NCBI GenBank assembly: GCA_003153875.1
Contig: PMBY01000342.1
Location: 1 to 22,041, forward strand
DNA: 22,041 nucleotides
Direction: 5' to 3'
DNA from: Myxococcales bacterium
GTDB taxonomy: Bacteria; Myxococcota; Polyangia; Fen-1088
Position numbers and translations under genes: made by a program
In this document: positions 61-22,041 of the stretch, piece after piece
Numbering within the stretch: the first letter of the stretch is position 1
Layout: the number at the start of each line of letters is the position of its first letter
The notes under the pieces: generated by a model
The model's database searches: none
Told to the model about the DNA's origin: nothing
What the model saw: the letters and a program-made list of their open reading frames with translations, nothing else

Positions 61-726
61 ATGGAGCTCGTATCTGATCTGGCCAGCGAATGCTTCAGCG
101 CCATCGGCCGCCTGCGCGTGCTGGACGAGCCGGTCGCCTCGCCAGCGGCGGTGCAGGTCCAACTGCGCAGCTTGGTGGATAGCTTCAAGGAACGAGCACG
201 CAAAGCCGGGGTTTCCGACAAGGACGCGCAGGATAGTGCCTACGCCCTGGTCGCGCTCATGGACGAGGTCGCGTTGCGCGCGCCCGAGCCGCTACGCGGT
301 TACTGGATGAACCAGCCGCTGCAGCTGCACTACTTCGGTGAGAACCTGGCTGGCGAGGGATTCTTCACCCGCCTGGACGGCCTGTTGACCGACGGGCGCC
401 GGCTGGCGGTCTTGCGCGTCTACCAGCTTTGCTTGTTGTTCGGGTTCCAGGGCAAGTACGGCTTGCCGGGTGGCGAGGTCGAGCTCATGCGCCTGGCCGA
501 GACCGTACGCAATCAGGTGGAACGCGATCAAGAAGTGCCCAGCGCGCTTTCGCCCGCGGGCGAGGCGCCCGACGAGCCGTTGCTTCGCAGCGCAGGCCGC
601 AGCCGCCTGCTGTGGGTGTCGCTTGGGATCTTTGCCCTGGCCCTGATTGTCTTCGTGGGCTTGCGGGTTTCATTCGATCGCCAGGTCGGCGACCTGGCCG
701 GCCGCGTGGATGAGATAGCGCCGTAA
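61..726 (+). CDS. tssL: TssL (DotU family), T6SS inner-membrane complex protein
   Basis: This 221-aa protein has the DotU layout: a cytoplasmic helical domain (about residues 1-180), one transmembrane helix near the C-terminus (about 183-201, LLWVSLGIFALALIVFVGL) and a short periplasmic tail. Family motifs seen are ALMDEVAL (64-72), HYFGENLAGEGFF (90-102) and YQLCLLFGFQGKY (121-133). TssL binds TssM and the baseplate to form the membrane anchor of the secretion machine. There is no OmpA-like peptidoglycan-binding extension, so wall anchoring would need another protein. The ATG lies three bases after the upstream stop, and tssM follows after 10 bases, typical of one operon. The family call is secure. 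Confidence 0.93.
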   Translation: MELVSDLASECFSAIGRLRVLDEPVASPAAVQVQLRSLVDSFKERARKAGVSDKDAQDSAYALVALMDEVALRAPEPLRGYWMNQPLQLHYFGENLAGEGFFTRLDGLLTDGRRLAVLRVYQLCLLFGFQGKYGLPGGEVELMRLAETVRNQVERDQEVPSALSPAGEAPDEPLLRSAGRSRLLWVSLGIFALALIVFVGLRVSFDRQVGDLAGRVDEIAP

Positions 727-736
727 GGGTGAGGAC

Positions 737-3700: not shown

Positions 3701-4138
3701 CAGGACATGTCGAGCTGGCTCTTTGCCAAGGATCCGGGAAAGCTGAGCATGCCCGTCGAGGTCCGCATCCGCCCGTCGGCACAGTATTCCAAGATCGTGC
3801 TCGACGCTGGCGGCAAGAAGGTCGTGGGCCTCAATGCTGTCGAGCGCTGGGATGAGATCCTTTGGCCATCCCGGCGCGCTCTTCTGCGCCTCTACGTCAA
3901 GGCCGACCAAGTGGAAGCCCTCGGCCCGAGCGAGGACGGCGACTGGGCCTTGTTTCGCCTGTTGGGCCAAGGCGCCAGTCTCGGCAGAAACGAGGATGTG
4001 CTCTCGCTCTCGTTCGCCTCCGCCTTCGGTTCGGCTAGGGTACAAGTCGACTTCAAGCCCGATACGGTGCGCGACCTGTTTGCACGCTTCGCGCTTCCAC
4101 GCAGCATCACGCCCGAGGCCGCCGCGTGTCGCAAGTAG
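737..4138 (+). CDS. tssM: TssM (IcmF family), T6SS inner-membrane complex protein with NTPase domain
   Basis: This 1133-aa protein has the usual TssM length and order. Two N-terminal membrane helices (about 4-20 and 28-46) precede a cytoplasmic GTPase-like domain with Walker A GPSGAGKTT (116-124) and VILDTAGRW (159-167; DTAG at 162-165). A third helix follows at about 421-438, then a large periplasmic region ending in a beta-rich TssM C-terminal domain. With TssL, and TssJ elsewhere, it forms the channel spanning the envelope. The intact Walker A suggests an NTP-dependent type. The start is GTG at 737, preceded by a GTGAGG purine stretch, 10 bases after tssL. Its last 13 bases overlap tagF, which suggests translational coupling. 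Confidence 0.95.
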   Translation: MLKYIVGLIFIALTWAVALVFRGVAPLFWMAVGVTGAVGFGLLAFDLVRMRSAQRASSALENGLGGPAGDIRPDQQAEIAAMQAEFQKALLSLKSSRRAQRGGDALGALPWYVIIGPSGAGKTTALRNSGVPFPHAKGGRVRGVGGTRNCDWWLSNDAVILDTAGRWATEEDDLEEWLAFLSLLRQSRPRKPVNGILVAVSVMDLQGDGDEIAALAKTLRERIDEVMGRLDMVLPVYLLVTKCDLVAGFVETFGDLRDKERGQIWGFTLPLLATVDERVEMFGGHFDELCEVLEQRARERVYEERRVEARFSIVEFPRQFATLKQSLTDLVTDLFAENVYRDAPIMRGVFFTSGTQEGRPIDRIMKSMADAFGVSARAAAGAVSKPKSYFLREPFTEVVFADKDVAIRSTRVLLRQRIKRLLLTVFALAGAAGFLFLPVRWYSTNRDFVHEARRFVDKLAAGRQGRDSAPLPSAATLESVEAMAKTLEEGSDGSVLFPRSAVHHSLHTTIERLVVRPILRADVAKAAVSGGLAPIEMTDALVLHLLLTEAKQPDEPTPRTPGWAKAAQRAGRKAAARWESLTGPVAASRAPRVVESLVRFYAAGIQDPADLIDRDRKFVSTARATLIGAGEDPLAELINDPAMPRDLKVVDVLGGAVMFFQVEEGQKRPGSAVRGAFTRAGYRMVTKRVERLHKAQDADEDGWILGQERKAKDATAIARLQSDYFAQYVAAWKAFLLSLAVREPATLEQARALLQRLVKDKPFETIWRNLGENLTLKDESLTGRALTLARSAVPDDVVDSDPGARQVAREFEGLLRFGSVKPTGFDQYNQILVELTAAMGEQGMPEPRAFQAALKTQRTNLSGLIARYNDQGWEQGLLERILMPPLRGAEAAVVGASAELANRKWCETVVVAFDELLARKFPFATDKAAGEARLADVEKFFQPASGILWQYFAGALQADIERAGSVFRVKEGASVRYKDDFLKFLSRAQDMSSWLFAKDPGKLSMPVEVRIRPSAQYSKIVLDAGGKKVVGLNAVERWDEILWPSRRALLRLYVKADQVEALGPSEDGDWALFRLLGQGASLGRNEDVLSLSFASAFGSARVQVDFKPDTVRDLFARFALPRSITPEAAACRK

Positions 4139-5037
4139 CGCCGGCTGCGGCCGGGGCCGTGGGGTTCTACGGGAAGATTCCCGCCCAACGCGACTTCATC
4201 CGAATCAACGCCGGTGCGTTCTTGCGGGCCGGCCTCGACCGCTGGTTGCAGGAAGGAGTAGAGCACCTGCAGGGCCTTCAGTTGCCCGCGGAGACGACGT
4301 GCTTCCTGCTCTCTCCCGCGGCTGGCACTCAGTCGTTCGTCGGGGCTCTTGCGCCCGGCACAGACTCGCTTGGCCGGGCTTTCCCGGTGGTGATTTTCGC
4401 GGCTGTCGACCAGCCGTCGCACGCGGGCTGCTCTCTTCTTCCCTTGCGGCTCGCATCCTTCTGCGCGGCAAGTGTCCGGTTGGCTAGGACCGCGCACGCA
4501 CTTGACCTGGCGCAACTGGTGGCCGAGATCGACGCCCTGGCGTCCGGTCCACGGCTGGCCGTCCGGGTGCCGGACGTCAATGCGCTTCTGGCCCGGTCGA
4601 GCGGCTCTGACCTTGGCGCAGCCGTGGGCGGGCTGCCCGGGGCGGCGGCCTACGCTCTCTTCACGCTCATTGCGGCCTGTTCTCACACCAAAGCGCCTGA
4701 CTCGCCCGCTCGCGTGCTGGTTCTTGATTGCCCTGCCCCAAGCGACGAGCTGCGGACATTCTGGTTGGCACTGGTGCGCCGCCACCTGCCTGAGCAGATG
4801 CCGTCGTTCTTCTGGACGCGAGAAAGCGGCCGGCTGCTCATCGCGCTCGGCCCGGCGCCCAGCCTGATGCTCGCCTACCTGGCGGATTCCGAGCACAAGG
4901 GATCGCGCCGCTGGCCCCTGCGGACCCTTGACCCGAGTGCGCGCGCGAAGGCATTGGAGAAACTCTCGCCGGCCCAGAGACGGGTGTTGCGCAACGGCGA
5001 TGCGTCGCTGGCCGACGTCTTGCAGGTGTTCGCCTAG
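4126..5037 (+). CDS. tagF: TagF-type T6SS-associated regulatory protein
   Basis: The 303-aa product opens with GFYGKIPAQRDFIR (13-26), matching the TagF/ImpM signature G-F-x-G-K-(L/I)-P-A-x-x-D-F; QR stands where RG is common. No signal peptide or membrane helix is visible, so it should be cytoplasmic. In studied systems TagF represses T6SS assembly after translation, through Fha or sheath-linked partners. It starts with GTG inside the 3' end of tssM (13-base overlap), and its TAG is followed immediately by the vgrG ATG, so it is coupled to both neighbours. No PppA or PpkA phosphatase/kinase domain is fused here, unlike some homologues. The family is secure; the regulatory role here is inferred. 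Confidence 0.88.
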   Translation: MSQVAPAAAGAVGFYGKIPAQRDFIRINAGAFLRAGLDRWLQEGVEHLQGLQLPAETTCFLLSPAAGTQSFVGALAPGTDSLGRAFPVVIFAAVDQPSHAGCSLLPLRLASFCAASVRLARTAHALDLAQLVAEIDALASGPRLAVRVPDVNALLARSSGSDLGAAVGGLPGAAAYALFTLIAACSHTKAPDSPARVLVLDCPAPSDELRTFWLALVRRHLPEQMPSFFWTRESGRLLIALGPAPSLMLAYLADSEHKGSRRWPLRTLDPSARAKALEKLSPAQRRVLRNGDASLADVLQVFA

Positions 5038-7230
5038 ATGGACGTTCCTTTCGACATCTCGCCATCGGCGATGACGGTCACGGTTCCCGGGTTGAAAGAC
5101 AGCAGGCTGGGCGTGTACCAGCTGCAGGGCCACGAAGCCCTGGGGCGGCCTTACGAATATCGGGTCGAGCTGGTGAACTTGAGTGAACCCGAGGCCGTGC
5201 GCCAGGCTGTCGATCCCGATGGGCTTCTCAAACCACAGACGTTGCTCGGGCAGACGCTGACCGTCTGCCTGCCTGTGGCCAGCGACAAAGTCCGCCATTT
5301 CAGTGGGATTGTCACCGAGGCCTGTCGCCTGGGGTGGCGCGGAGGATACGCGCACTACGGCGTGAGCATCAGCCCCGAGCTGTGCCTGCTGACCTTGAAC
5401 CGGGACTGCCGGATCTTTCAGGACGTGACCGTGCCCGAGGTGGTCAAGCAGATCCTTCGCCAGCACAAGATCGACTCATTTCGAGAGTCGCTGTTTCGCA
5501 GCTACCGGCACTGGGACTGTGTGACCCAATATCGGGAGTCGGATTTCGATTTCATAAGCCGCATCCTTGCCCATGAGGGCATCTACTACTATTTCGAGCA
5601 CAGCGAAGACAGTCACACCCTGGTGCTGGCGGACTCAGTCAGCTCGCACGGAGTGCGGGAGGACTTCCAGGAAGTGTGGATGGGACGGCCGTCGACCACC
5701 TCGGCATCTCCCGACTATCTGGAAACCTGGCAGGAAAGTTTTCAAATCCAGAGGGATACCGTCACTCTGGCGGATTTCGACTTCCGGCTGCACCACCCCG
5801 GCGCGCGGCTAAGCGTGCGCCGCCACGTCGAGGTGGAAGCGAAGTGCCCAGGACTGGCCATCTACGACTACCCAGGCAAACTCGTGCTGGCCGAAAACCA
5901 GGAAGACCCGCCCGACGATGGGGATTCAGACGAAAACCGCGAAACACGCGAACGGCCGGCCGAGACACGCCTGGAGGAAAAGCGCTGTCTGGCCGAGCGC
6001 TATCAGGGCCAGGGCACCGCGCGCTGGCTGGCGACTGGGTGCTTGTTCTCAATTGCCAATGCCGAGGCCTATGCGCAGCGGCAGTTTCTGGTGACGAGGA
6101 CCGAGATCACGCTGCGCAATTCCCTCTTCCGGTCGGGCAACGATCCGGTGCAGGAGTCCTGTGCCATCACAGTGAGTGCGATTGATAGTCAGACCCAGTT
6201 TCGCTCGCCGCTGCTGGAGAAGCCCGTGGTGCGAGGTCCGCAGACGGGGCGCGTGGTGGGACCCCAGGATGAGGAAATCTGGACCGACAAATACGGCCGA
6301 ATCAAGCTGCAGTTCCACTGGGATCGCGAAGGGGTTTTCGACGAGAACAGCTCGTGCTGGGTGCGGGTGGCGCACCCTTGGGCGGGAAATCGCTGGGGCG
6401 CGATTCACATCCCGCGCGTGGGCAACGAGGTGGTGGTGGAATTCTTGGAAGGCGATCCGGATCGACCCCTGGTCACGGGCAGCGTCTACAACGCGGACAA
6501 CATGCCGCCCTACACGTTGCCGGAGAACAAGACCCAAAGCGGGATCAAGACCCGCAGCAGCAAGGGCGGCACCCAGGCGAACTTCAACGAGATCCGCTTG
6601 CAAGACAAGAAGGGCCAAGAGGAGCTGCACATCCAAGCCGAGCGGAACATGTCGACCCTGGTCAAGCAGGACCAGAGCCTCACGGTGCAGGCGGACCGCA
6701 AGGTGACCGTACACGGGAACGAAACCATCACTGTGACCGAGGCCGAAACGCAGACCTACAATGCCGACCGCAAGATGACGGTCGAGGGTGCCAACACCGA
6801 CGACATCAAAGGCGCGCACAAAGCGACGTACCACGGGGGCCGGAATGAGACTGTCGAGAACGGCGATACGTTGACCGTTGAACGGTCGGACAAGACCACC
6901 ATGGTCGGCGGTGAGTACAACGTTGTGGCGGTCAAGCGCTACGGAGTTACATCGGGCGAAATTGCCACCTGCGACTTGGTTCTCAAGGAGGGTGTCGTGA
7001 CCATCACGGCCAAGAACGAGATCAATCTGGCGTGTGGCGACGCGAGCCTCAGCCTCAAGAAGGACGGCACAGTGGTGATTCAAGGCTCCAAGTCAGTGAG
7101 AGCCATTGGCGCCCAGTCGGAACTCGAGCTGGCCGCTGCCGGGGCGACGCTGGCAGGAGAGAACGCGACCATGTCCGGCAAGACCCTGACCGAGATCAGC
7201 GGAGGCGTGGCCGTTAAGATCAACGGCTGA
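5038..7230 (+). CDS. vgrG: VgrG, T6SS tip spike protein
   Basis: This 730-aa protein has standard VgrG architecture. A gp27-like base domain covers about residues 10-390 (HWDCVTQYRESDFDFISRIL; EGIYYYFEH). A gp5-type OB fold contains KYGRIKLQFHWDREG (from about 418), RVAHPWAGNRWG and FLEGDPDRPLVTG (from about 469). A beta-helical needle rich in short T/V/D repeats runs from about 530 to the end. It trimerises and tips the Hcp tube. The protein ends shortly after the needle (VAVKING), with no catalytic extension, so it is probably a structural spike carrying effectors through adaptors or PAAR proteins encoded elsewhere. It follows tagF with no gap and converges on the lipoprotein array, whose last stop is 57 bases away. 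Confidence 0.95.
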   Translation: MDVPFDISPSAMTVTVPGLKDSRLGVYQLQGHEALGRPYEYRVELVNLSEPEAVRQAVDPDGLLKPQTLLGQTLTVCLPVASDKVRHFSGIVTEACRLGWRGGYAHYGVSISPELCLLTLNRDCRIFQDVTVPEVVKQILRQHKIDSFRESLFRSYRHWDCVTQYRESDFDFISRILAHEGIYYYFEHSEDSHTLVLADSVSSHGVREDFQEVWMGRPSTTSASPDYLETWQESFQIQRDTVTLADFDFRLHHPGARLSVRRHVEVEAKCPGLAIYDYPGKLVLAENQEDPPDDGDSDENRETRERPAETRLEEKRCLAERYQGQGTARWLATGCLFSIANAEAYAQRQFLVTRTEITLRNSLFRSGNDPVQESCAITVSAIDSQTQFRSPLLEKPVVRGPQTGRVVGPQDEEIWTDKYGRIKLQFHWDREGVFDENSSCWVRVAHPWAGNRWGAIHIPRVGNEVVVEFLEGDPDRPLVTGSVYNADNMPPYTLPENKTQSGIKTRSSKGGTQANFNEIRLQDKKGQEELHIQAERNMSTLVKQDQSLTVQADRKVTVHGNETITVTEAETQTYNADRKMTVEGANTDDIKGAHKATYHGGRNETVENGDTLTVERSDKTTMVGGEYNVVAVKRYGVTSGEIATCDLVLKEGVVTITAKNEINLACGDASLSLKKDGTVVIQGSKSVRAIGAQSELELAAAGATLAGENATMSGKTLTEISGGVAVKING

Positions 7231-7286: not shown

Positions 7287-9131
7287 CTACGGGTACTCGC
7301 CCACGCCCAGGGGGGGACAGATCGCATCCGTCAGGGCGCAGGTTAGGCACTGCAACGCCAGCATCGTGCCCGGCGGCGCCACGGTGCCCATCGGGCGCAA
7401 GACAGAGATCCTCTGGTTCTTGAAGGCGTTCGGGCAACCTGTGGCGGGGCTACTGTCGTAGGACAGGTACCAGCAAGGCCGCGACGGCTCGCTGATACTG
7501 GCGGTGAGCGTAGCGTCGACTTGAGCTTGGCCAACAACGCTGGGATCGAGACCGGAGGGGTCGAGAATGTTCCCGTTGCTGTCTTTGCACTCGTTGAGGC
7601 GCGTCTCCTTGAAGAGGCTCTCCAGGCAACCGTCCTTGTATACTTCAGTGCACGGAACTCGCTCGACCGCCTGGCACTCGGGCTCGGTGACGGGGGTAGT
7701 CGGGTCTGTGTCGATCAACGCGTAGTTGACACAGCCGGGCTTCAACACCTGAGCAATCGAATTTCCAATCTGAGTCATGGCGTTGGTGAAGTCCGCGCTG
7801 CAAATGCTGAACACTTTGCCGTTTGCGCCGAATGCATCGATGAACTGCTTCAAGCGGAGACCTCCGTAGGCCTTGTAGATATTGCCGTCAGCGGATTGCT
7901 GCGTGGGATCCATGCAGATAGGCATGTAGTCCCACAGGGCTTTCTGGGATGCCGGAAGGGAGGTGGTATCCTTATCAATGCGATAGTCGGAGTAGGTTTG
8001 CAGAGAGGCCGGGAGGGCCGTGTCGTTCGCGCCCGGGGGCCAGCCGATGATGCCAGACACCAGGATCTTCTGTGCGGCCTCGACCTGTTTGACCCAGTTC
8101 ACGCTCTCGACCATTTCCCGAACATCGTAGAGCGGCAGATAGACGTGGTCTGGATTATTGGGGTCGGCTTGAGTCTTGGCTGAGCAATCGGAGAAGGGGT
8201 ACGTGAAAGGTAGGCCCATGTAGCCGACCGCTGGGTCGTAACTGGGAATTGGGCTACCGCCACAGAGATGGCCGCGTGCCGCGCATCGCAGGCTGGTGGT
8301 ATCGCCCGCGTTTCTCTTGTTAACCATGTCGAACATGTTGTCGTTGTCGGCGTTGTAGTTGCTGGCGGAACAGTCATCCTCATCAGTGACAAGAACGATG
8401 GCGAGGTAGGCGTTGGGCCGCAGGAACCCGTTGTTCGCATCGTTGATGCCTGCCTGGGGGATGAGGGCCACGCGAGTGGCTTGCAGTTGGTGCTCTTCTC
8501 CACAGCCCCCGACGCCCACGGCCTTGGCGAGGCAAGAGAACACATCTGCAAGTTGCAGGGTGGGATCGTAGTTCTGTATTCGCCCGGCCTGGTTGGGATT
8601 TTGGATATCCTCGATCCAACGTTGGCCGTCGTAGAGTCCGCACCCAGGGGCTATCAGAGCAGGAGGAGGGTTGCTCGGATCTGGATTTGCAAAGTAGCTG
8701 CCGTTGGCAGCGACGGAGGCGATGGTATTGACGGAATCGTTGCCCCACAGCAGGCCCATGTCGCCCAGGCCATTGCCGCAGTTGCCGCCCATGGCGCCAT
8801 TGCCGGCTCCCATGTTGCTGCTGACCACGCCGATGTGCACGTCAGGCAAGCCACCGGGAAGCGACTGCAGCACAGAGATCATCTTGGGGAAGTTAGCAGC
8901 CAGGGCCCTCTGTTTGGGGTCCATTGACGGGGAGTTGTCGACCATGAACAGGATGTCGACGGCACGCTCCGGGCTAATCAGAACCTGGAAGTCGGTTTCC
9001 TCCCCTATGAATTTTGGCCCCGGCTTCGGCGCCTTGGAGCTGCAGGCCCACAGAAGCAACGGGAGGGCAAATACCCAGCGCAAGGGTCGCCAGCAGCAGA
9101 GCAGCGAAAACCGTGAAGAACGATGGGCCAT
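7287..9131 (-). CDS. VWA-domain lipoprotein, paralog A of a four-gene array
   Basis: The 614-aa product starts at ATG 9131 behind a good ribosome site (AAGGAGGGG). It has a signal peptide ending in LLLWAC, so Cys30 should be lipidated; the +2 residue is Ser, not the inner-membrane-retention Asp. The A-like domain shows DILFMVDNSPSM, with an intact metal-site motif D65-x-S67-x-S69, and IVLVTDEDDCS at about 245-255. The stretch GCGEEHQLQATRVAL, with NNGFLRPNAYLAIVLVTDEDDC a little later, is one I associate with myxobacterial VWA-like lipoproteins of unknown role. The Cys-rich C-terminal third ends with RPCWYLSYDSS and ALQCLTCA. It is the last gene of the array, 138 bases after B, so it may have its own promoter. 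Partner and function are unknown; metal-dependent binding is inferred. Confidence 0.85.
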   Translation of the reverse strand: MAHRSSRFSLLCCWRPLRWVFALPLLLWACSSKAPKPGPKFIGEETDFQVLISPERAVDILFMVDNSPSMDPKQRALAANFPKMISVLQSLPGGLPDVHIGVVSSNMGAGNGAMGGNCGNGLGDMGLLWGNDSVNTIASVAANGSYFANPDPSNPPPALIAPGCGLYDGQRWIEDIQNPNQAGRIQNYDPTLQLADVFSCLAKAVGVGGCGEEHQLQATRVALIPQAGINDANNGFLRPNAYLAIVLVTDEDDCSASNYNADNDNMFDMVNKRNAGDTTSLRCAARGHLCGGSPIPSYDPAVGYMGLPFTYPFSDCSAKTQADPNNPDHVYLPLYDVREMVESVNWVKQVEAAQKILVSGIIGWPPGANDTALPASLQTYSDYRIDKDTTSLPASQKALWDYMPICMDPTQQSADGNIYKAYGGLRLKQFIDAFGANGKVFSICSADFTNAMTQIGNSIAQVLKPGCVNYALIDTDPTTPVTEPECQAVERVPCTEVYKDGCLESLFKETRLNECKDSNGNILDPSGLDPSVVGQAQVDATLTASISEPSRPCWYLSYDSSPATGCPNAFKNQRISVLRPMGTVAPPGTMLALQCLTCALTDAICPPLGVGEYP

Positions 9132-9147
9132 AAAACCCCTCCTTGTA

Positions 9148-9192
9148 GACGAGCCAGAACGACAGCCAGACTCCGCAGTCAGATTACAGCAA
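9148..9192 (-). promoter_or_regulatory. Upstream segment of A, similar to that of D
   Basis: This 45-base segment begins 17 bases upstream of the start codon of A. It resembles 14994-15038, at exactly the same distance from the start of D; by hand I count 31 of 45 identities without gaps, including GACGAGCCAG and TACAGCAA at the two ends. B and C lack it and instead follow their neighbours by 27 and 14 bases. It is a candidate promoter or control region, but I see no convincing -35/-10 pair, and it may simply be leftover homology from the duplication. Confidence 0.4.
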
Positions 9193-9234
9193 CACGCCAG
9201 CAGAGAAAACCCAATTCGCGGACTCGCCGCGACC

Positions 9235-9260
9235 GCCGCGGAACGGCTCTTGGCCGCGGC
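9235..9260. other. Inverted repeat between B and A
   Basis: GCCGCGG (9235-9241) pairs with CCGCGGC (9254-9260) across a 12-base loop, 10-35 bases past the stop of B. On the transcribed strand no T-run follows directly (a short TTTT comes some 25 bases later), so it is not a standard intrinsic terminator. It could separate transcription of B and A, or be chance in GC-rich DNA. Confidence 0.3.
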
Positions 9261-9269
9261 CTCTCGCCA

Positions 9270-11180
9270 CTATTGAGCGGGACACTGTGGCTCGCCGGCC
9301 GCGCAGGTCAGGCACTGCATCGCCAGCATCGTGCCCGGCAAGGCCACGGTGCCCTCCGGGTACAAGGCAGAGATCTTCTGGCCCTTGTACGAGCTTGCGC
9401 AACCTGAGGCGCTGTTGTCGTAGGAGAGGTACCAGCAAGGCCGCGAGGCCTGGCTGATGTGGGCGCCGAGCGTAGCGTCGACCTGAGCTTGGCCAACAAC
9501 GTTCGGGTCGAGACTGGAGGGGTCGAGAATGCTCCCCAAGGCATCTTTGCACTCGGGCAAGGGATTCTCCGTGTAGCTGGTAGTCAGGCAGCCACCCACT
9601 CCCGGCGTATCGCATGGGGTGCGAGCGTACGCCTGGCAGTCGGGCCCAATGATTCTGTATGTATTCGGGTTTGTGCCGATCAAGGAGGCTGGCACGCAGC
9701 CGGGCTGTAGAGCAGTCGGCATTGCCGCTGCGATTGACTGGCCGATTTTGGTCAGGGCATTCGTGAAGTCTGAGTTGCAGATGCTGAAGGTTTGGCCGTT
9801 GGCGCCGTACGCATCGATGAACTTCTTCAAGCGCAGACCGCCATAGGCCTTGTAGATATTGCCATCAAGGGCCGTCTGCGTGGGATCCAAACAGATCGGC
9901 ATGTAGTCCCACATGTTCTTCTGCGACTGCGGAAACGACGTGGCATCCTTGCCAATTCGCCATTGAGTATTGATTTGAACACTGGGCGAGAGGCTCGCGT
10001 CGTTCGGGTCCGGGGGCCAGCCGATGATGCCGGACACGAGAATCCTCTGCGGGGCCATAAACCCTTTGACCCAGCTGACGCTGTCGATCATCTGCTGAAC
10101 ATCGATGAGCGGCATGTACACATAGTCCGCTGGGATCCTCTGAGACTTGGCTGTGCAGTCGAAAAGGTCGTGAGTGAACCCTGTGCCCATGTAGCCGGCC
10201 GATGGGTCGTAGTCAGGAATTGGCTGGCCGCCGCAGAGATCACCCCGTGCCGCGCATCGCACGCTGGTGGTGTCGCCCGGGTTTCTCTTTCCGACCATGT
10301 CGAAGATGTTGTCGTTCGTCGCGTTGTCGGGGGTGGCGGAGCAGTCATCCTCATCGGTGACAAGAACGATGGCGAGGTAGGCGTTGGAACGTACGAAGCC
10401 GTTGTTTGCGTCGTTGATACCGGACTGCGGGATGAGAGCCACGCGAGTCGCTTGCAGTTGGTGCTCTTGTCCACAGCCACTAATTCCCACGGCCTTGGCG
10501 AGGCAAGAGAAGACGTCTGCAAGTTGCAGGTTGGTGGAGTAGTTCCGTTGCCGCCCGGTTCCTGAACTGGGCGCTTGGATATCTTCGATCCAACGCGCAC
10601 CCGGGTAGAGGCCGCACCCCGAGGCTATCAGAGCAGGGGGCGGGTTGAACGGCTCGGCATTCACAAAATAGTTGCCGTTGTCCGCGACCGACGCGACCGG
10701 ATCGTTGGGATCGTTGCCCCACAGCAGGCCCCTGTCGCCCAGTCCTGTTCCGCAGTTGCCGCCCATCGCGCCCGAGCCAGCCCCCATATTGCTACTGACC
10801 ACGCCAATGTGCACGTCAGGCAGGCCGCCGGGCAGCGCCATCAGCGCAGTGATCATCTTGGGAAAGTTATTGGCCAGGGCTTTCTGCTTGGGTTCCATGG
10901 AAGGCGAGTTGTCGATCGTGAACAAGATGTCGATTGCGCGCTGCGGGCTCAGCAGAATGGAGAATTCGGTCATGTGACTTGTGCCTGCATCTGGCGTTTG
11001 CAGCGGTCCAATGGCGGCATCCGGCGTTTGCAGCGGCCCAATGCCGGCATCCCGCGCTTGGAAGGAAAGAGACGAGCGGGACTTGCAAGCCAAGGAGGCC
11101 AAAGGCAGAGCGAGAACCAACACCCAGCGCAGGTGCTGCCAACGGCCGAGCGGCGAGAACTGTGAATAGCTATGGGTCAT
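9270..11180 (-). CDS. VWA-domain lipoprotein, paralog B of a four-gene array
   Basis: The 636-aa product starts at ATG 11180 with GAGGAGGC just upstream. The signal peptide ends in ASLAC with Cys32 as the likely lipidated residue and Lys at +2. A short linker after it carries a 10-residue tandem repeat (DAGIGPLQTP, DAAIGPLQTP, then DAGT), shared with D but not with A or C. The metal-site motif is intact (D90-x-S92-x-S94 in TIDNSPSM), and VTDEDDCSA is present. The Cys-rich C-terminal part is like that of the other copies (RPCWYLSYDNS, MQCLTCA). It lies 27 bases after the stop of C, so the two are probably co-transcribed. The family is clear from its sisters; the function is unknown. Confidence 0.85.
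   Translation of the reverse strand: MTHSYSQFSPLGRWQHLRWVLVLALPLASLACKSRSSLSFQARDAGIGPLQTPDAAIGPLQTPDAGTSHMTEFSILLSPQRAIDILFTIDNSPSMEPKQKALANNFPKMITALMALPGGLPDVHIGVVSSNMGAGSGAMGGNCGTGLGDRGLLWGNDPNDPVASVADNGNYFVNAEPFNPPPALIASGCGLYPGARWIEDIQAPSSGTGRQRNYSTNLQLADVFSCLAKAVGISGCGQEHQLQATRVALIPQSGINDANNGFVRSNAYLAIVLVTDEDDCSATPDNATNDNIFDMVGKRNPGDTTSVRCAARGDLCGGQPIPDYDPSAGYMGTGFTHDLFDCTAKSQRIPADYVYMPLIDVQQMIDSVSWVKGFMAPQRILVSGIIGWPPDPNDASLSPSVQINTQWRIGKDATSFPQSQKNMWDYMPICLDPTQTALDGNIYKAYGGLRLKKFIDAYGANGQTFSICNSDFTNALTKIGQSIAAAMPTALQPGCVPASLIGTNPNTYRIIGPDCQAYARTPCDTPGVGGCLTTSYTENPLPECKDALGSILDPSSLDPNVVGQAQVDATLGAHISQASRPCWYLSYDNSASGCASSYKGQKISALYPEGTVALPGTMLAMQCLTCAAGEPQCPAQ
10987..11046 (-). repeat. 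30-base tandem repeat in the linker of paralog B
   Basis: Two 30-base units plus the start of a third (markers GCAT at 10987, 11017 and 11047 on the + strand) encode the 10-residue repeat DAGIGPLQTP / DAAIGPLQTP between the lipidated Cys and the VWA domain. Copy number could vary between strains and would change the distance of the domain from the membrane. Confidence 0.8.
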
Positions 11181-11207
11181 GGAAAGCCTCCTCGTGGTCT
11201 CTGGTCG

Positions 11208-13070
11208 CTAGTGGTTCACGCCCGGGCAGCTCTTCTCCGATGGGGCGCAGGTCAAGCACTGTATCGCCACTATCGTGCCCGGCGGGGCCACGGTGCCGGT
11301 CGGGCGCAAGACAGAGATCCTCTGGCCCCTGTACGCGCTCCCGCAAGCGAGAGCGCTGTTGTCGTAGGAAACGTACCAGCAAGGCCGCGAGGCATCGTTC
11401 ACGGTGGCCAGCACAGCGTTGATCTGAGCCTGGGGATGGAGCGGATTGTTGAGGTCCGGGCCGGGGTCGAGACTGGAGGGGTCGAGAATGTTCCCCTGGC
11501 CGTCCCTGCACTCAGGCAGGAGATTCTCCGTGTAGCCGGTTGACTGGCAGCCACCGACGTTGGGCTGGTCGCACGGCCTGCGGTCGTGCACCTGGCAGTC
11601 TGTCTCGATGATGTTGGGCGTATTCGGATCCAGATCAATCAGCGGGTCTTGGACACAGCCGGGCTTCGACACGGACGCCAGCGCCGTTGCCAGTGATTGG
11701 GCGATCTGGTTCAGGGCATTGCTGAAATCCGAGTTGCAGATGCTGAATGTCTGTCCGTCGGGGCCGAATGCATCGATGAACTGCTTCAAGCGAAGACCGC
11801 CATAGGCCTTGTAGATATTGCCATCAGGCAATGTCTGGGCGGGATCCCAGCAAATGGGCATGTAGTCCCACAGAACGGCCTGCGATGCGGTAACCCAGGT
11901 GGCATCCTTGCCAATCCGATACTGATCGTTGGTCTGAACACTGGGCGAGAGGGTCGGATCGTTGAGGTCCGGAGGCCAGCCGATGATACCAGACACGAGG
12001 ATCTTCTGCGCCCAGGCGTTTCCCTTGACGTACGTGACGCTGTCGACCATGTCCTGAACATCGATGAGAGGCATATAGGTGTAGTCCGGATGGGCGGGGT
12101 CAAGCTGGGCCTTGGATGCGCAGTCAGTGAAGGCGTGCGTGAAGCCTGAGCCCGTGTAACCGACGGCAGAGTCGTTGTAGTCAGGAATTGCCTGGCCGGC
12201 ACAGAGATGGCCGCGCGCCGCGCATCGCAGGCTGCCGGTTTCGCCCATCGGCCTCTCCAGGAACATGCCGTCGTTCACGAGATCACTGATATCAGCAGAG
12301 CAGTCATCTTCGTCGGTGAGCAGCACTATGGCGAGGAAGGCGTGCTGCCGTAGGAAGCCGTTGTTCTCCATGTTGACGTCAGTTCCGCCGGTCAGTCCCT
12401 GCGGATTGAGCGCCAAACGAAGCGCTTGCAGTTGGTGCTCGTACCCGCAGCCCGCAGTGCCCACGGCCGTGGCGAGGCAAGAGAAGACATCTTCGAGTTT
12501 CAGGTTGGCCACGTCGTAGTTCCGTTGCCGCCCGACCCCTGTCTGGGGTGTTTGGATATCTTCGATCCAACGTTGACCAAGGTTGAGGCCACAGCCGGAG
12601 GCAATGAGCGGGTGGTTTGGATCGGTCGCGTATGGACTGCCGTCCGCGACCGACGCGATCAGATTGCTGGGATCGTTGCCCCACAGAAGGCCCCTGTCCC
12701 CCAGCACGCGACAGTTGCTGCCGATGGCCTCGGAGCCAGCGCCCATGTCGCTGCTGACCACGCCAATGTGCAGGTCAGGCAGGCCGCCGGGAAGCGCCCC
12801 CAGTGCGGCGGTTATCCGGGAAAAGTTGTTGGCCAGGGCTCGCTGCTTGGGGCCCATCCCAAAGGAATTGTCGATTACGAACAGAATGTCGATCTGCCGC
12901 TCCGGACTCTCCATGAAGGAAAAGTCGGTCTCTTGCCCTACATGCGGCGGCGGCCAAGTCGGCGCCTTGGAACCGCAGGCGCAGACAGCCAAGGGGAGCA
13001 AGGCAACCAGCCGCCGGCGCACCTGCTGCCAACGGCCGAGCGCCGAGAACCATGAAGAACTATGGGTCAT
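11208..13070 (-). CDS. VWA-domain lipoprotein, paralog C, with altered metal-site motif
   Basis: The reading frame is open to 13457, but the real start is ATG 13070: it aligns with the starts of B and D (MTHSSSWFSALGRWQ), has GGGAGGA upstream and is followed by a signal peptide ending VCAC (lipid Cys32). The product is then 620 aa. It is the most divergent copy. The motif reads VIDNSFGM, so D67-x-S69-x-G71 replaces DxSxS. The segment before DEDDCSAD carries an insertion (NPQGLTGGTDVNMENN), and the region after it lacks the DMVGKR seen in its sisters. TDEDDCS, PCWYVSYDNS and IQCLTCA are kept. The ATG is 14 bases after the stop of D. The lost Ser suggests weakened metal binding; the role is unknown. 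Confidence 0.85.
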   Translation of the reverse strand: MTHSSSWFSALGRWQQVRRRLVALLPLAVCACGSKAPTWPPPHVGQETDFSFMESPERQIDILFVIDNSFGMGPKQRALANNFSRITAALGALPGGLPDLHIGVVSSDMGAGSEAIGSNCRVLGDRGLLWGNDPSNLIASVADGSPYATDPNHPLIASGCGLNLGQRWIEDIQTPQTGVGRQRNYDVANLKLEDVFSCLATAVGTAGCGYEHQLQALRLALNPQGLTGGTDVNMENNGFLRQHAFLAIVLLTDEDDCSADISDLVNDGMFLERPMGETGSLRCAARGHLCAGQAIPDYNDSAVGYTGSGFTHAFTDCASKAQLDPAHPDYTYMPLIDVQDMVDSVTYVKGNAWAQKILVSGIIGWPPDLNDPTLSPSVQTNDQYRIGKDATWVTASQAVLWDYMPICWDPAQTLPDGNIYKAYGGLRLKQFIDAFGPDGQTFSICNSDFSNALNQIAQSLATALASVSKPGCVQDPLIDLDPNTPNIIETDCQVHDRRPCDQPNVGGCQSTGYTENLLPECRDGQGNILDPSSLDPGPDLNNPLHPQAQINAVLATVNDASRPCWYVSYDNSALACGSAYRGQRISVLRPTGTVAPPGTIVAIQCLTCAPSEKSCPGVNH

Positions 13071-13084
13071 GGAAATCCTCCCGG

Positions 13085-14977
13085 TTATTGGGCGGCTGGG
13101 CAAATCCCGTCCGGTGAGGCGCAAGTCAAGCACTGCATCGCCAGGAACGTCCCAGGCGGCGCCACTGTGCCCGTCTGGCGCAAGACAGAGATCCGCTGGC
13201 CCTTGTATACGTCCGCACAACCCGCGGCGCTGTTGTCGTAGGAGAGATACCAGCAAGGCCGCGAGGCCTCGCTGATGTTGTTGGTGAGCAGCTGGTCGAC
13301 TGCAGCCTGGCCAACGACGCTGGGGTCGAGGCTGGCGGGATCGAGAATGTTCCCCTGGCCATCCTTGCACTCGGTGAGGGGCGTATCCCTGAAGCCGGTT
13401 TGCAGACAGCCATTCCCGCCCGGCGTCGCGCACGGAATGCGGTCGATAGCCTGGCATTCAGGCTCGGTGATGTCGGGCGTATTCGGGTCCGTGTCGATCA
13501 ATGGGTATCGAACACAACCAGGCTTCAACACCTGAACAATTGCGTTGCCAATCTGTTGCATGGCACTCGTGAAGTCCGAGTTGCAAATGCTGAACACATG
13601 TCCGTTCGCGCCGAACGCATCGACAAACTGCTTTAGGCGCAGACCGCCGTAGGCCTTGTAGATATTGCCGTCAGCGGCTTTCTGCGCCGGATCCGAGCAG
13701 ATGGGCATGTAGTCCCACAGGTTCTGCTGCGATGCCGGAAGAGAGGTGGCATCCTTGTCAATCCGATATTGATCAGTGGTTTGAACAGTGGAGGAAAGGC
13801 TCGGGCCGTTCGGATCCGGGGGCCAGCCGATAATGCCTGACACGAGGATCTTCTGCGGGGCCTGGACTCCTTTGACCCAGTTCACGCTGTCGATCATGTC
13901 CTGAACATCGAGGAGCGGCATATAGGCGTAGTCGGGGGGCGTTCTTTGAGACTTGGCTGAGCAGTCGGAGAAAGCATGCGTGAAAGGCGCTAGGCCAATG
14001 TAGCCGATCGCAGGGTTGAAGCTGGGTATGGGCTGGCCGCCACAGAGATGGCCTCGCGCCGCGCATCGCAGGCTGGTGGTGTCGTTCGGGTCTCGCTTGC
14101 CCACCATGTCGAACATGTTGTCGTTGAAGCTGTTTCTGTTGTCGGCGGAGCAGTCATCCTCGTCGGTGATGAGAACAATGGCGAGGTAAGCGTTTGCACG
14201 CACGAAGCCGGCGTTCTCCTCGTTGATACCTGCCTGGGGGATGAGGGCCACGCGAGTCGCTTGCAGTTGGTGCTCTTCTCCACAGCCCCTGACACCCACG
14301 GCGGTGGCCAGGCAAGAGAAGACGTCTTCGAGTTGCAGGCTGGTGCTGTCGTAGTTCCGCTGCCGCCCGGTTGCCGGGGCGGGCATTTGGATATCCTCGA
14401 TCCAACGTTGACCAAGGTAGAGGCCGCACCCAGAGGCAATCAGCGGGTGGGTCGGATCTGTCGCGTATGGACTGCCATCCGCGACCGAGGCAATCATATT
14501 GGTGGGATCGTTGCCCCACAGGAGGCCCATGTCGCCCAGGCCATTGCCGCAGTTGCCGCCCATGGCGCCATTGCTAGCTCCCATGTTGCTGCTGACCACG
14601 CCGATGTGCACGTCAGGCAATCCGCCGGGAAGCTTCCCCAGTGCAGCGATCATGTTGGGGAAGTTCGCGGCCAGCGCTTTCTGCTTGGGATCCATGGAAG
14701 GGGAGTTGTCGACCATGAACAGAATGTCGATTGCGCGCTCTGGGCTAACCAGAATGGAGAAACTGGTCATATTGCTTGGGCCGGCATCTGGTATCGGGAG
14801 CGATCCGGTGCCGCTATCAGGCGTCTGGAGCGGCCCGGTGCCGGCATCTGGCGCCTGCAAGGCAGAGGACAGCTCGGACTTGCAAGCCCACAGGGCCAAG
14901 GGGAGAGCCAGGACCAATAGCGAGCGCAGTTGCTGCCTACAACCGAGGGACGAGAACTGTAAAGAACTATAGGTCAT
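13085..14977 (-). CDS. VWA-domain lipoprotein, paralog D, first gene of the array
   Basis: The frame is open to 15049, but ATG 14977 is preferred: AGGAGGA lies just upstream and the signal peptide (MTYSSLQFSSLG..., ending ALWAC, lipid Cys32, Lys at +2) then begins properly. The product is 630 aa. A linker with the 10-residue repeat DAGTGPLQTP, DSGTGSLPIP, DAGP links it to B. The metal-site motif is intact (D90-x-S92-x-S94, MVDNSPSM), and ITDEDDCSA and GCGEEHQLQATRVAL are present. The C-terminal part is Cys-rich (RPCWYLSYDNS, MQCLTCA). It lies 114 bases after cydB on the same strand, so it could be read through from cydB or from its own promoter in that gap, which holds a segment also found before A. 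Function unknown. Confidence 0.86.
   Translation of the reverse strand: MTYSSLQFSSLGCRQQLRSLLVLALPLALWACKSELSSALQAPDAGTGPLQTPDSGTGSLPIPDAGPSNMTSFSILVSPERAIDILFMVDNSPSMDPKQKALAANFPNMIAALGKLPGGLPDVHIGVVSSNMGASNGAMGGNCGNGLGDMGLLWGNDPTNMIASVADGSPYATDPTHPLIASGCGLYLGQRWIEDIQMPAPATGRQRNYDSTSLQLEDVFSCLATAVGVRGCGEEHQLQATRVALIPQAGINEENAGFVRANAYLAIVLITDEDDCSADNRNSFNDNMFDMVGKRDPNDTTSLRCAARGHLCGGQPIPSFNPAIGYIGLAPFTHAFSDCSAKSQRTPPDYAYMPLLDVQDMIDSVNWVKGVQAPQKILVSGIIGWPPDPNGPSLSSTVQTTDQYRIDKDATSLPASQQNLWDYMPICSDPAQKAADGNIYKAYGGLRLKQFVDAFGANGHVFSICNSDFTSAMQQIGNAIVQVLKPGCVRYPLIDTDPNTPDITEPECQAIDRIPCATPGGNGCLQTGFRDTPLTECKDGQGNILDPASLDPSVVGQAAVDQLLTNNISEASRPCWYLSYDNSAAGCADVYKGQRISVLRQTGTVAPPGTFLAMQCLTCASPDGICPAAQ
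14783..14842 (-). repeat. 30-base tandem repeat in the linker of paralog D
   Basis: Two diverged 30-base units plus the start of a third (beginning at 14783, 14813 and 14843 on the + strand) encode DAGTGPLQTP / DSGTGSLPIP / DAGP. It matches the repeat in B in position and sequence, while A and C have an unrelated short linker containing SKAP and ETDF. Confidence 0.75.
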
Positions 14978-19197: not shown

Positions 19198-20775
19198 ATG
19201 CGAATCACGGCTTGGCCCAAACTAGTCTTGTGCGGTGTCGTTGTGTGGAGCTGCTCTTGCAAACCAACGACGCCCGGATCGGGCTCTGGCGGCAATTCCT
19301 CGTCTGGAGGCAAGTTGGCGCCCGTCGGCGGTTCAGAACCCGAATCAACCGGCGGGGGCAAGGGTGGAACCACGGCGAGCACCGGCGGCGCTACGACCGG
19401 CAACAGCGGCGGAAACACGACAAGCAATGGCGGCGGTACCACTGGCAGCACCGGCGGAATCACGACGAGTATTGGCGGCAGTACCACGGGCAACACTGGT
19501 GGCGCCACGACCAGCAATGGCGGCAGTGCCACAGGGAACACCGGCGGGACATCGGCGGCCGGTGGGGGCTCGATGACCTCAGGTGGTGTGACCACGAGCT
19601 CGGGCGGCTCGTCAGGGACCGCGAGCACGCCAGCACCCTGCGCCAATGGCGTACAAGACCCCGGCGAAACCGGAATCGATTGTGGCGGAACATGTCCGGC
19701 GTGCCCGGTTGTCTACAAGGTGAATCCACCCAATCAGTGTCAGAACCAGTACTTCTATTCGAACTGCAAGTCTGGAGATGCGACGACCCAGTGTGGGGGC
19801 GTGTGCCAGCCGCGCAACGCCTGCGAGAATGCCCCGAGCAAGGATGGCAAGGTGGGCTTCGCCTGTTCGCGCTACATGCTATTCAGCCCGGCCATGTTGC
19901 AGGCAGCGAAAGACGACGGTGCGGCGAATGGTTGGGACGCGAGCGCCCCGCCGTTCCTCTATGCGGCGGTCGGACACGACACCAATACCGGTGGTATCGA
20001 CAAAGGCATGACCGGCAACCAGCCCTGCTGCGAATGCTATCAATTGATATTCGATCAACCCTTCAATGAAGGGGGCAGCCAGAACAACCAAGCCCCTGCG
20101 CCCAAGCCGCTCGTTGTTCAAAGCTTCAACATTGGTGCGACCACCGACAGTTTCGATATCTACATGGGCGCCGGCGGGTTCGGGGCCTTCAATGCCTGCA
20201 TGAACGGAACCATCCAGAGTTCAGCCGGATATGCGCTCTACGACGCCTATCCGACCGATGGCCAGCCCGGCAATGGCGGGGTGAAGTTCCGCAGTTACGA
20301 TGAATGCCGATCGGGCGACCAGAAGATCACCAACGCCGACGGCATCAACTCTGCGGCCTGCCAGACCAAGATCGCGGGACTGTGCAACCAAGTGAAGTCC
20401 GCCAAGGTGCCCGACCTGGCTTCGACTACAATCAATTCCTGCATCGAGAGCAACCAGGTGGGCACGCTCTACCATCAGAACTGGGCAGTCTATGCCAAGC
20501 GGGTGGCGTGCCCGGACAACCTGACGCGGGTCACCGGGTGCAAGCTGGCCGCCGAAGCCGGGCTGGCCAAGGTCGACGCCAAGGTGACCACTGTGGATCA
20601 GGCCAAGGCCGCCGGATTCCTCAGCGGGTACCACACCACCACGATGCAAGACTGCTGCAAGCCAGCCTGCTCATGGACAGAGAAGATTGGCGGCAACGAG
20701 GGCATGAAGAAAGTCGATCCCCAGTTCACCAATTTCTACACATGCGACGCCAGTGACCAGCCGATGACCGAGTAG
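19198..20775 (+). CDS. Secreted GH45-like endoglucanase with permuted catalytic domain
   Basis: The 525-aa product has a signal peptide with a plausible lipobox (VWSC, Cys19), a Gly/Thr/Ser linker (about 22-147), a Cys motif GVQDPGETGIDCGG (151-164, within Cys148-Cys169) and a Cys-rich catalytic region (about 172-525). Family-45 cellulase blocks are clear: CCECYQLIF (277-285), LVVQS (305-309), SFDIYMGAGGFGAFNAC (318-334, putative acid Asp320), SYDEC (366-370), RVACPDNLTRVTGC (435-448) and QDCCKPACSW (484-493, putative base Asp485). In known GH45 enzymes the DCCKPSC block comes first; here it comes last, so the domain appears circularly permuted. It should cleave beta-1,4-glucan outside the cell or at its surface. 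The ribosome site is weak. Confidence 0.8.
   Translation: MRITAWPKLVLCGVVVWSCSCKPTTPGSGSGGNSSSGGKLAPVGGSEPESTGGGKGGTTASTGGATTGNSGGNTTSNGGGTTGSTGGITTSIGGSTTGNTGGATTSNGGSATGNTGGTSAAGGGSMTSGGVTTSSGGSSGTASTPAPCANGVQDPGETGIDCGGTCPACPVVYKVNPPNQCQNQYFYSNCKSGDATTQCGGVCQPRNACENAPSKDGKVGFACSRYMLFSPAMLQAAKDDGAANGWDASAPPFLYAAVGHDTNTGGIDKGMTGNQPCCECYQLIFDQPFNEGGSQNNQAPAPKPLVVQSFNIGATTDSFDIYMGAGGFGAFNACMNGTIQSSAGYALYDAYPTDGQPGNGGVKFRSYDECRSGDQKITNADGINSAACQTKIAGLCNQVKSAKVPDLASTTINSCIESNQVGTLYHQNWAVYAKRVACPDNLTRVTGCKLAAEAGLAKVDAKVTTVDQAKAAGFLSGYHTTTMQDCCKPACSWTEKIGGNEGMKKVDPQFTNFYTCDASDQPMTE
19363..19542 (+). repeat. 45-base tandem repeat encoding the GH45 linker
   Basis: Four 15-residue units (residues 56-115) each consist of a 7-residue and an 8-residue half beginning with GG, for example GGATTSN then GGSATGNT. 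The GG pairs at 56, 71, 86 and 101 keep the exact 15-residue spacing, as do those opening the second halves. The units are diverged but in phase, so the linker grew by duplication of a 45-base unit. Confidence 0.75.
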
Positions 20776-20930: not shown

Positions 20931-22041
20931 CTATCGTCGTCGTCGCGAGCGAACCCGCCAGGCAAGGCCACAGGCGAATGCGAATGCCCACGCGAGGGAC
21001 ATGGGGTACCGCGTGCCAGGCCCAGGGGCGAAGGTGCAGCCCGAGGACGATGAAGCATTGGTCACGGGGGGTCCAGACGTTCCTGTGGATGCGATGGATC
21101 CACCGCCGCTGGGCTGGGCCGTGCTGCCCATCGCGGGCAGGCCTCCGGTAGCCGTCACGCCGCCGGTGGAGGTTGGCGTGGTGCCACCCGTGACAGTGGT
21201 GGTGCCGCCTGTGGAACCAACTGCAATGGATCCGCCCGCGGCGGTGGTGCCACCCGCGGCCGTGGTTCCGGCGGAGGCGGTGCTACCACCGATTTCCGTG
21301 GTTCCCGCAGCGGCTGAGTTGCCACCGGCTGCCGTGGTTCCGGCGGGGGCGGTGTTGCCAGCGCTTGCCGTGGATCCGCCCGCTGCGGAGTTGCCACCGG
21401 TTGCCGTGGATCCGCCCGCGGCAGTGGTTCCACCCTTGACCACTGTGCCGCCGCTGGCGCTGCCGCCACCGGCGCCAGCCGCACCAGCGTCCCTGGGCGT
21501 AGCGCCATCGCCTGGTCCCGCGTCGCGCACCACGGTTCCGCTCGTGCCGGCTGTTCCGCTCGTGCCGCCGGTACCACCGGCGCCACCCGCGCCTCCCGTG
21601 CCGGGCACGCCGCTATTGGCGCTGTACGTGCTGCAGGCGTTTCCCGCCACGCCGGTGTCGGCGTCGAAGGTTGCACCGTCAAAGGGAACCACGATGACTT
21701 TGCTGCCATGGGTGTCGTTGCCGAGTTCCGAGGCCTTGTCCACGTCGATGGCCGCGAAAGTGAATGCGCTGACGTGCCCGTTTTCCATGAATACGGCGGC
21801 GCGCTCCAGTTTGTACCAGTGGTTCACCGTGCCGTCCGTGTAGCGGATGAAGTTGGTGGTGGGATCGTAGGCGATTCCCAAGTCTTTCCAATTCTTGATC
21901 CCGTCAGGCGACACCATGTGCCGTGCCTTACGCAGGTCGTAGTAGTTGTAGACCATGTGGTATTGCCCGCCACTGCACCAGATAACCGGATCCTCGCGCG
22001 ATCCACTGGGGTAACCCGCGGGCGTGATGAACACCTTCGCG
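20931..22041 (-). CDS. Surface-anchored glycosidase-like beta-propeller protein (5' end missing)
   Basis: The frame is open to the window edge (AKVFITPAGYPSGSREDP...), so the start lies outside. The visible N-terminal 130 or so residues look like blades of a five-bladed beta-propeller glycosidase (GH43/GH117-type): SREDPVIWCSGGQYHMVYN, SPDGIKNWKDLG, and LERAAVFMENGHVSAFTFAA. The Glu-Asp-Pro could be a catalytic-site turn. There follows a long Gly/Ala/Thr/Ser linker with a 12-copy hexapeptide repeat, then a tail reading SSSSGC, a hydrophobic helix (about MSLAWAFAFACGLAW) and RVRSRRRR: a MYXO-CTERM-like sorting signal. The protein is probably exported and anchored at the cell surface. Substrate and exact family are uncertain. 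It converges on the GH45-like gene. Confidence 0.65.
   Translation of the reverse strand, partial: AKVFITPAGYPSGSREDPVIWCSGGQYHMVYNYYDLRKARHMVSPDGIKNWKDLGIAYDPTTNFIRYTDGTVNHWYKLERAAVFMENGHVSAFTFAAIDVDKASELGNDTHGSKVIVVPFDGATFDADTGVAGNACSTYSANSGVPGTGGAGGAGGTGGTSGTAGTSGTVVRDAGPGDGATPRDAGAAGAGGGSASGGTVVKGGTTAAGGSTATGGNSAAGGSTASAGNTAPAGTTAAGGNSAAAGTTEIGGSTASAGTTAAGGTTAAGGSIAVGSTGGTTTVTGGTTPTSTGGVTATGGLPAMGSTAQPSGGGSIASTGTSGPPVTNASSSSGCTFAPGPGTRYPMSLAWAFAFACGLAWRVRSRRRR
20934..21053 (-). other. MYXO-CTERM-like C-terminal sorting signal
   Basis: The last 40 residues contain SSSSGC followed by a short Pro/Gly stretch, a hydrophobic helix and a terminal cluster of Arg. This Ser-Gly-Cys / helix / basic layout is that of MYXO-CTERM tails, which are processed at the Cys by a myxosortase-type protease in myxobacteria. 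The spacing from Cys to helix looks slightly long, so it may be a variant form. Confidence 0.6.
21219..21434 (-). repeat. 18-base tandem repeat (12 units) encoding a hexapeptide linker
   Basis: Twelve in-phase 18-base units encode hexapeptides of the form (G/A)-(G/A)-(T/S/N)-(T/S/I)-(A/E)-x, such as GGTTAA, GGSTAT, GGNSAA and AGTTEI. The period is exact over 216 bases. It separates the propeller domain from the C-terminal anchor and is likely to vary in copy number between strains. Confidence 0.8.

Follow-up and report, generated by a model that had tools for sequence, protein, structure and literature searches.

Can the catalytic domain of glycoside hydrolase family 45 (GH45), a cellulase family of industrial use, exist in nature with its sequence blocks in rotated order? 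The question is raised by an open reading frame (ORF) of 525 amino acids at positions 19198..20775 (+) of a 22,041-nucleotide stretch from a Myxococcales bacterium (assembly GCA_003153875.1, contig PMBY01000342.1), the whole of which is hereafter called the window. The ORF comprises a lipoprotein-like start, a Gly/Ser/Thr-rich linker, a small Cys motif and a Cys-rich domain extending from about residue 172 to its end, in which a first-pass annotation had proposed an apparent circular permutation of GH45. Four lines of evidence, namely block order, profile rotation, element order in structural models and order-keeping structure alignment, agree with this proposal, and we estimate at about 85% the probability that the gene product is an enzyme, either secreted or anchored to lipid, whose GH45-type catalytic domain (double-psi beta-barrel) is a natural circular permutant. 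Strand 1 and the catalytic-base block, N-terminal in canonical enzymes, are here C-terminal, the old termini are connected by a linker, and proteins of this design form a one-clade family. The window protein scored below the gathering cut-off of the Pfam GH45 model (PF02015); Pfam and NCBIfam searches assigned it no family, nor did Pfam for the isolated domain.

Block order against solved GH45 structures

A search of 5.8 billion proteins with this protein gave 561 matches, 120 of which were listed; the motif counts reported below refer to these 120 and the window protein. Sixty of the listed proteins, picked by hand and not cut by motif, were aligned with the window domain (61 rows). All nine PDB sequence matches of the window protein (phmmer) were GH45-type endoglucanases, and the 61-row profile matched 10 distinct PDB sequences, all likewise of GH45 type. 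In the phmmer alignment with 1oa7, ORF residues 480-518 corresponded to chain residues 5-43, residues 269-335 to 77-135, and residues 433-458 to 183-208. Blocks were swapped in all nine printed PDB alignments (five single-sequence and four profile alignments, the latter with the same three blocks), and the N-to-C block order of the window domain differs from that of the PDB GH45 chains. Judged from these alignments, the domain consists of two segments, each collinear with the parent enzyme, in exchanged order.

As previously annotated, the CCECY block (residues 277-281; 20026..20040, +), the FD motif (residues 319-320) and CPDNLTRVTGC (residues 438-448; 20509..20541, +), the last being a C-terminal block in canonical enzymes and internal here, precede the DCCKPAC block (residues 485-491), and the ORF contains no second, N-terminal DCC copy. 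In Cel45A the catalytic acid is Asp121 and the catalytic base Asp10; their counterparts here are Asp320 (20155..20157, +) of the FD motif and Asp485 (20650..20652, +), respectively. The moved segment, TTTMQDCCKPACSW...FYTCD (residues 480-525; 20635..20772, +), is the canonical N-terminus now placed C-terminally, and is joined to the old C-terminus by a linker of residues 449-479 (20542..20634, +). In the rotated alignment the new N-terminal part of the domain, residues 172-276 (19711..20025, +), corresponds to GH45 from about Cys47 to Cys86 (Cel45A numbers), plus roughly 50-60 additional residues. The GH45-like core thus begins at about residue 172 (19711) and not at 20023, the start of the annotated span (20023..20772). 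After rotation, all 14 cysteines of the Cel45A pattern were filled (alignment by eye), and six further core cysteines are family-specific. The 20 core cysteines hardly vary among the 112 permuted cores described below, which precludes cysteine co-loss analysis.

Profile rotation and structural models

The rotation was scanned by comparing 112 permuted cores (81 after the hhalign filter) with 18 canonical domains while the start was moved in 12s; nine of the 121 proteins, in which the cutting motifs were missing or near an end, were omitted from this set and from the doubling and core-conservation sets. In native order the hhalign score was 91.2 (E 1.3e-12), with a match over columns 64-232 of 233. 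Four starts within residues 448-484 gave scores of 133.2-133.7 (E ~5e-19) and matches from column 18, 21 or 26 to column 232, a rotation scoring 133.5 covering columns 18-232. Starts at 340-436 scored about 116, because the moved piece was joined to the middle but the tail was lost, and the reversed-sequence control scored 10.9 (E 0.83). At the sequence level, rotation thus brings back a single, near full-length match, and its optimum places the join between TGC448 and Asp485, as expected from the earlier suggestion that the old termini had been joined.

A hidden Markov model (HMM) built from 12 canonical domains matched 20 canonical-order frames whole (two rows being one gene, and two partial). 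In 16 permuted frames (L001-L015 and L029) the later part of the profile was matched first and a stretch within positions 5-51 last, with both parts matched in 16/16. In L015, profile positions 55-230 precede 5-51, and the cut in this protein therefore falls between positions 51 and 55. The piece originally described as moved, DCCKPACSW plus the segment following it, is indeed last but larger than described, covering profile positions 5-51 in L015. By sequence, the new termini map to the interval from the Cys31 equivalent to the Cys47 equivalent of Cel45A, with some uncertainty as to the precise position.

AlphaFold2 models were compared for the permuted protein (pTM, the predicted template modelling score, 0.92) and a canonical paralogue. 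The permuted model has a double-psi beta-barrel fold like that of Cel45A. Core strands and helices follow the same order in both models save for strand 1, which passes from first to last place and is formed by the moved segment at model residues 304-312; the additional elements of the permuted model sit in the new N-terminal part, the linker and the tail. As far as the models predict, the order of the core secondary-structure elements is the same after rotation. Order-keeping alignment of the permuted model with the ten top GH45 chains started at chain residue 25 or beyond, whereas that of the canonical model started at chain residues 0-2 (23 in two precursor-numbered entries). A structure search against viral models returned no match with E < 0.001.

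Catalytic residues and selection

Asp320 and Asp485 are each invariant in 61/61 alignment rows and in 112/112 cores, the latter count being partly selected because the cores were in part chosen by these motifs. Both residues align with GH45 chains, the FD of the PDB chains shown falling on Asp320 as the catalytic acid, and their order is reversed, as had been noted from the sequence. In Humicola insolens EGV (HiEGV) the base Asp10 and the acid Asp121 lie 11.3 Å apart, and the same article, in the part retrieved, describes PcCel45A (subfamily C) and the expansin EXPB1 as having no Asp10 equivalent (PMC5829257). This expansin and subfamily C trait was not found in the permuted family, in which Asp485 is present in every row. 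The invariance of both catalytic Asp residues suggests that the protein is an active enzyme. Across the core, the ratio of nonsynonymous to synonymous substitution rates (dN/dS) of the window protein against six relatives was 0.075-0.326, and the gene is under purifying selection.

Distribution of the permuted family

Among the matches listed, together with the window protein, the order CCxCY-FD-CP..TGC-DCC was found in 106/121; 12 proteins were without DCC, two without CP and DCC, and one without FD, and in none (0/121) did DCC stand ahead of CCxCY. The precomputed PF02015 label was attached to 30 of the 120 listed relatives, so Pfam recognizes part of the permuted family. Scanning a single genome from each species yielded 15 loci from metagenome-assembled genomes (MAGs) with titles naming Myxococcales, Deltaproteobacteria, Chitinispirillaceae, Fibrobacter sp., Sorangium sp. 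and Proteobacteria. The permuted order was seen in all 15, one of which (L014) is cut and without the first block; homologues with the block order of the window protein, which the first-pass annotation had proposed to seek in other myxobacteria, are thus present. Full-length matches (>300 bits) occurred in 7/167 genomes of one phylum (that of G009) and in at least 4/377 genomes of another (that of G001), the latter being a lower bound, as one wider scan scored four candidates per genome. The remaining matches in the wider set were partial and mostly covered the CCxCY-FD stretch, which is common to canonical GH45 genes.

Two different permuted genes per genome were observed in G001 (L046, L058), G008, G012, G013 (L013, L029) and G030. 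An N-terminal carboxypeptidase-regulatory-like part was present in P0049, P0050 and P0080 (precomputed PF13620), in P0111 (by its source name) and in other listed relatives; P0080 and P0111 are both named Chitinispirillaceae. In genome G545, the match in L050 619-1638 and L056 3929-4948 is restricted to roughly the final 48 codons of a permuted gene, lying in a frame that is otherwise unrelated, and a cellulase-like frame (GH5-type by eye) follows; this looks like a gene remnant.

Canonical paralogues and origin of the permutation

The Pfam GH45 model matched in 14/15 relative genomes and in 0/14 control genomes. The match in G013 is its second permuted gene, L029, distinct from L013, and a canonical-order GH45 gene is therefore present in 13/15 relative genomes. 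The canonical bacterial paralogues (for example L022, L023, L025 and L026) share genomes and fold with the permuted proteins, and L025 likewise has a long Gly/Ser/Thr linker; they differ in having the ordinary block order, a near full-length PF02015 match (in L025 also matches to PDB GH45 chains) and a separate clade. A tree was built over 206 columns from 26 of the 112 permuted, 45 of the 146 canonical bacterial and three eukaryotic sequences. The permuted rows grouped together (100/100), and the canonical bacterial rows formed a second group that excluded them (98/99), with eukaryotic GH45 between the two. The tree is unrooted, its bootstrap is not fully settled, and the joining branch is long (1.55 changes per column either side of the drawn root). 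The simplest reading is that the permutation happened once, outside the canonical bacterial radiation as sampled.

Tandem canonical GH45 genes on one strand were observed in relatives (L033, L044 and L045), which provides raw material for duplication and fusion. Most simply, the permutation would have arisen once, long ago, when a gene duplicated in tandem, the copies fused in frame and the outer portions were lost. No tandem-fused intermediate was found among the sampled loci, of which L057 and L059 are truncated at the ends of their contigs. The 771-residue frame of L058, considered as a fusion, was rejected as a stop-to-stop frame with one permuted domain.

Interpretation and alternative explanations

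Several observations weigh against a permuted GH45 cellulase. In the doubling test (HMMER), none of the 112 doubled cores gave one domain spanning the junction, with median best-domain scores of 28.8 bits for single and 27.6 bits for doubled cores and no matches for shuffled doubles; this failure is ascribed to the additional N-terminal residues, which probably break the local alignment. The sequential Foldseek alignment was poor (root-mean-square deviation 10.7-11.4), and sequence and structure disagree slightly on the cut, since the structure alignment sets in at chain residue 25, ahead of the Cys31 equivalent. Of the (Y/F)WDCCKP motif, Asp485 and the cysteines are kept, but the Tyr/Phe-Trp that precedes the base in 145/146 canonical domains is Met-Gln in 61/61 permuted rows, and the ADNP loop is not retained in the rows shown; the cleft is therefore altered, though the catalytic pair is kept. 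These changes would also suit a true permuted GH45 fold that is not a cellulase and acts on another beta-glucan or hemicellulose, or in expansin-like wall binding and loosening. Such a function would equally fit the PGGG motif, which never has Pro (GAGG in 43/61 permuted rows, other non-Pro forms in 18), and the pairs His-Asp 260-261 and Tyr-His 425-426, which are invariant in 61/61 rows, have no clear canonical counterpart in the rotated alignment and are possibly new active-site residues. We consider it less likely than not, given that both catalytic Asp residues are invariant, unlike the situation described for EXPB1 and PcCel45A (PMC5829257, in the part seen). One GH10 (L007) and one GH97 (L012) frame were found among 20 neighbouring frames from 12 loci, which contained no common partner gene, and fit general polysaccharide breakdown, not specifically cellulose.

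More distant explanations concern the moved segment and the order itself. Searched alone against the PDB, the final 42 residues matched weakly (best E 0.051, at chain 10-43), as might a separate small Cys-rich module with a chance likeness to the GH45 N-terminus; the chains found were, however, of GH45 type only, rotation adds 42 to the score and lengthens the match, which then spans columns 18-232 of 233, both parts are matched in every permuted ORF tested, the 14 cysteines align, the body keeps the disulfide partners that this segment's cysteines have in Cel45A, and the N-terminal part is without any DCC block. It is thus very improbable that the DCC segment, as considered at the outset, is part of another domain. 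It is somewhat less so, but still improbable, that the permuted order is the older one or derives from another double-psi barrel, the GH45 likeness being deep homology or convergence: the long branch outside the canonical bacterial clade, in an unrooted tree, would allow this, but the canonical model can be aligned with expansin and barwin-like chains without any change of order, and the likeness to subfamily A extends to details of Cys, FD, CP..TGC and DCCKP. An assembly or frame artefact is scarcely credible; many relatives are metagenome contigs, but the order recurs in 106/121 proteins among the matches listed and in 15/15 public MAG loci, one of them cut, dN/dS is far under 1, and the existence of independent copies refutes this explanation.

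The permuted GH45 domain is homologous to GH45 subfamily A and most likely works like it, while standing outside that group by block order and Pfam cut-off. With subfamily A (Humicola insolens EGV 3eng, Melanocarpus 1oa7/1l8f, Thielavia 5glx/5gly, Neurospora 6mvi and the springtail enzyme 5h4u) it shares catalytic DCCKP and FD, CCxCY, CP..TGC, the 14-cysteine pattern and, after rotation, the order of core strands and helices; it differs in the last place of strand 1 with the base Asp, the additional N-terminal residues, the six added cysteines and the cleft changes noted above. The barrel fold and the FD/HFD acid motif are also common to expansins, GH45 subfamily C and barwin-like double-psi barrels. 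In Cel45A, disulfides pair residues 11-135, 12-47, 16-86 and 31-56. By analogy, the moved strand would refit its place in the barrel and be held to the body by four disulfides (486-334, 487-199, 491-277 and 516-223), so that Asp485 as base and Asp320 as acid could face each other across the cleft and hydrolyse beta-1,4-glucan with inversion. We tentatively suggest, at somewhat under even odds, an ancient and separate GH45-like lineage that arose by one permutation outside the present bacterial GH45 radiation, with a cleft remodelled by Met-Gln and the new His-Asp; it would be a subfamily or family in its own right, acting on a substrate of its own and largely missed by standard models.

One block order is found in all ten solved subfamily A chains met in this analysis. 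A permutant found in nature with both catalytic residues invariant would demonstrate that the strand carrying the base does not have to be synthesized first, and offers a natural experiment on the order of folding and on disulfide stapling in the double-psi barrel. Profile searches bound to block order can miss such enzymes; in myxobacterial and Fibrobacter-type genomes, the family brings to light probable polysaccharide hydrolases, of which family models recognize just a fraction (30 of the 120 listed). Element order is reportedly also rotated within one domain in the cpRAS GTPase, a natural circular permutation in an unrelated fold. A comparable rotation within one domain is described for the PutA barrel, again of a fold unrelated to GH45, in the part of the report retrieved (PMC3779223). 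The retrieved part of another article gives four GH45 genes for Fibrobacter succinogenes (PMC3079729). The first-pass annotation named no described permuted GH45 enzyme, and none was found in the open-licence library searched; subscription journals were not covered, so a prior description is possible. Papers joining GH45 or "family 45" with permutation terms concerned, in the passages retrieved, other matters, mostly statistics (PMC7410926, PMC10927120, PMC6165527, PMC12583078, PMC8227567, PMC4413825, PMC11076123).

Remaining features of the ORF and genomic surroundings

The remaining parts of the ORF were delimited by sequence reading. Residues 1-21 (19198..19260, +) form a hydrophobic stretch with Cys19 and Cys21, likely a lipoprotein signal, and are followed by the low-complexity Gly/Ser/Thr-rich linker at residues ~22-147 (19261..19638, +). 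A short Cys motif, CANGVQDPGETGIDCGGTCPACPV / NGVQDPGETGIDCGGTCPAC, precedes the domain at residues 148-171 (19639..19710, +); a Pfam scan of 19630-19710 gave no match.

Elsewhere, the window harbours type VI secretion genes at 61-7230 (DotU, IcmF, TagF, VgrG-like), three long frames without Pfam families on the other strand at 7290-13457, and cytochrome bd oxidase and glucose-6-phosphate isomerase genes. The upstream stretch of the window, with the oxidase and isomerase genes, is also found in the nearest relatives, L001 and L002. After the permuted gene lies a frame at 20931-22040 (-) without a Pfam family, which carries Gly/Thr repeats, a C-terminal hydrophobic stretch and an Arg-rich tail, and which weakly matches a solved putative glycoside hydrolase (4onz, E 0.0033).
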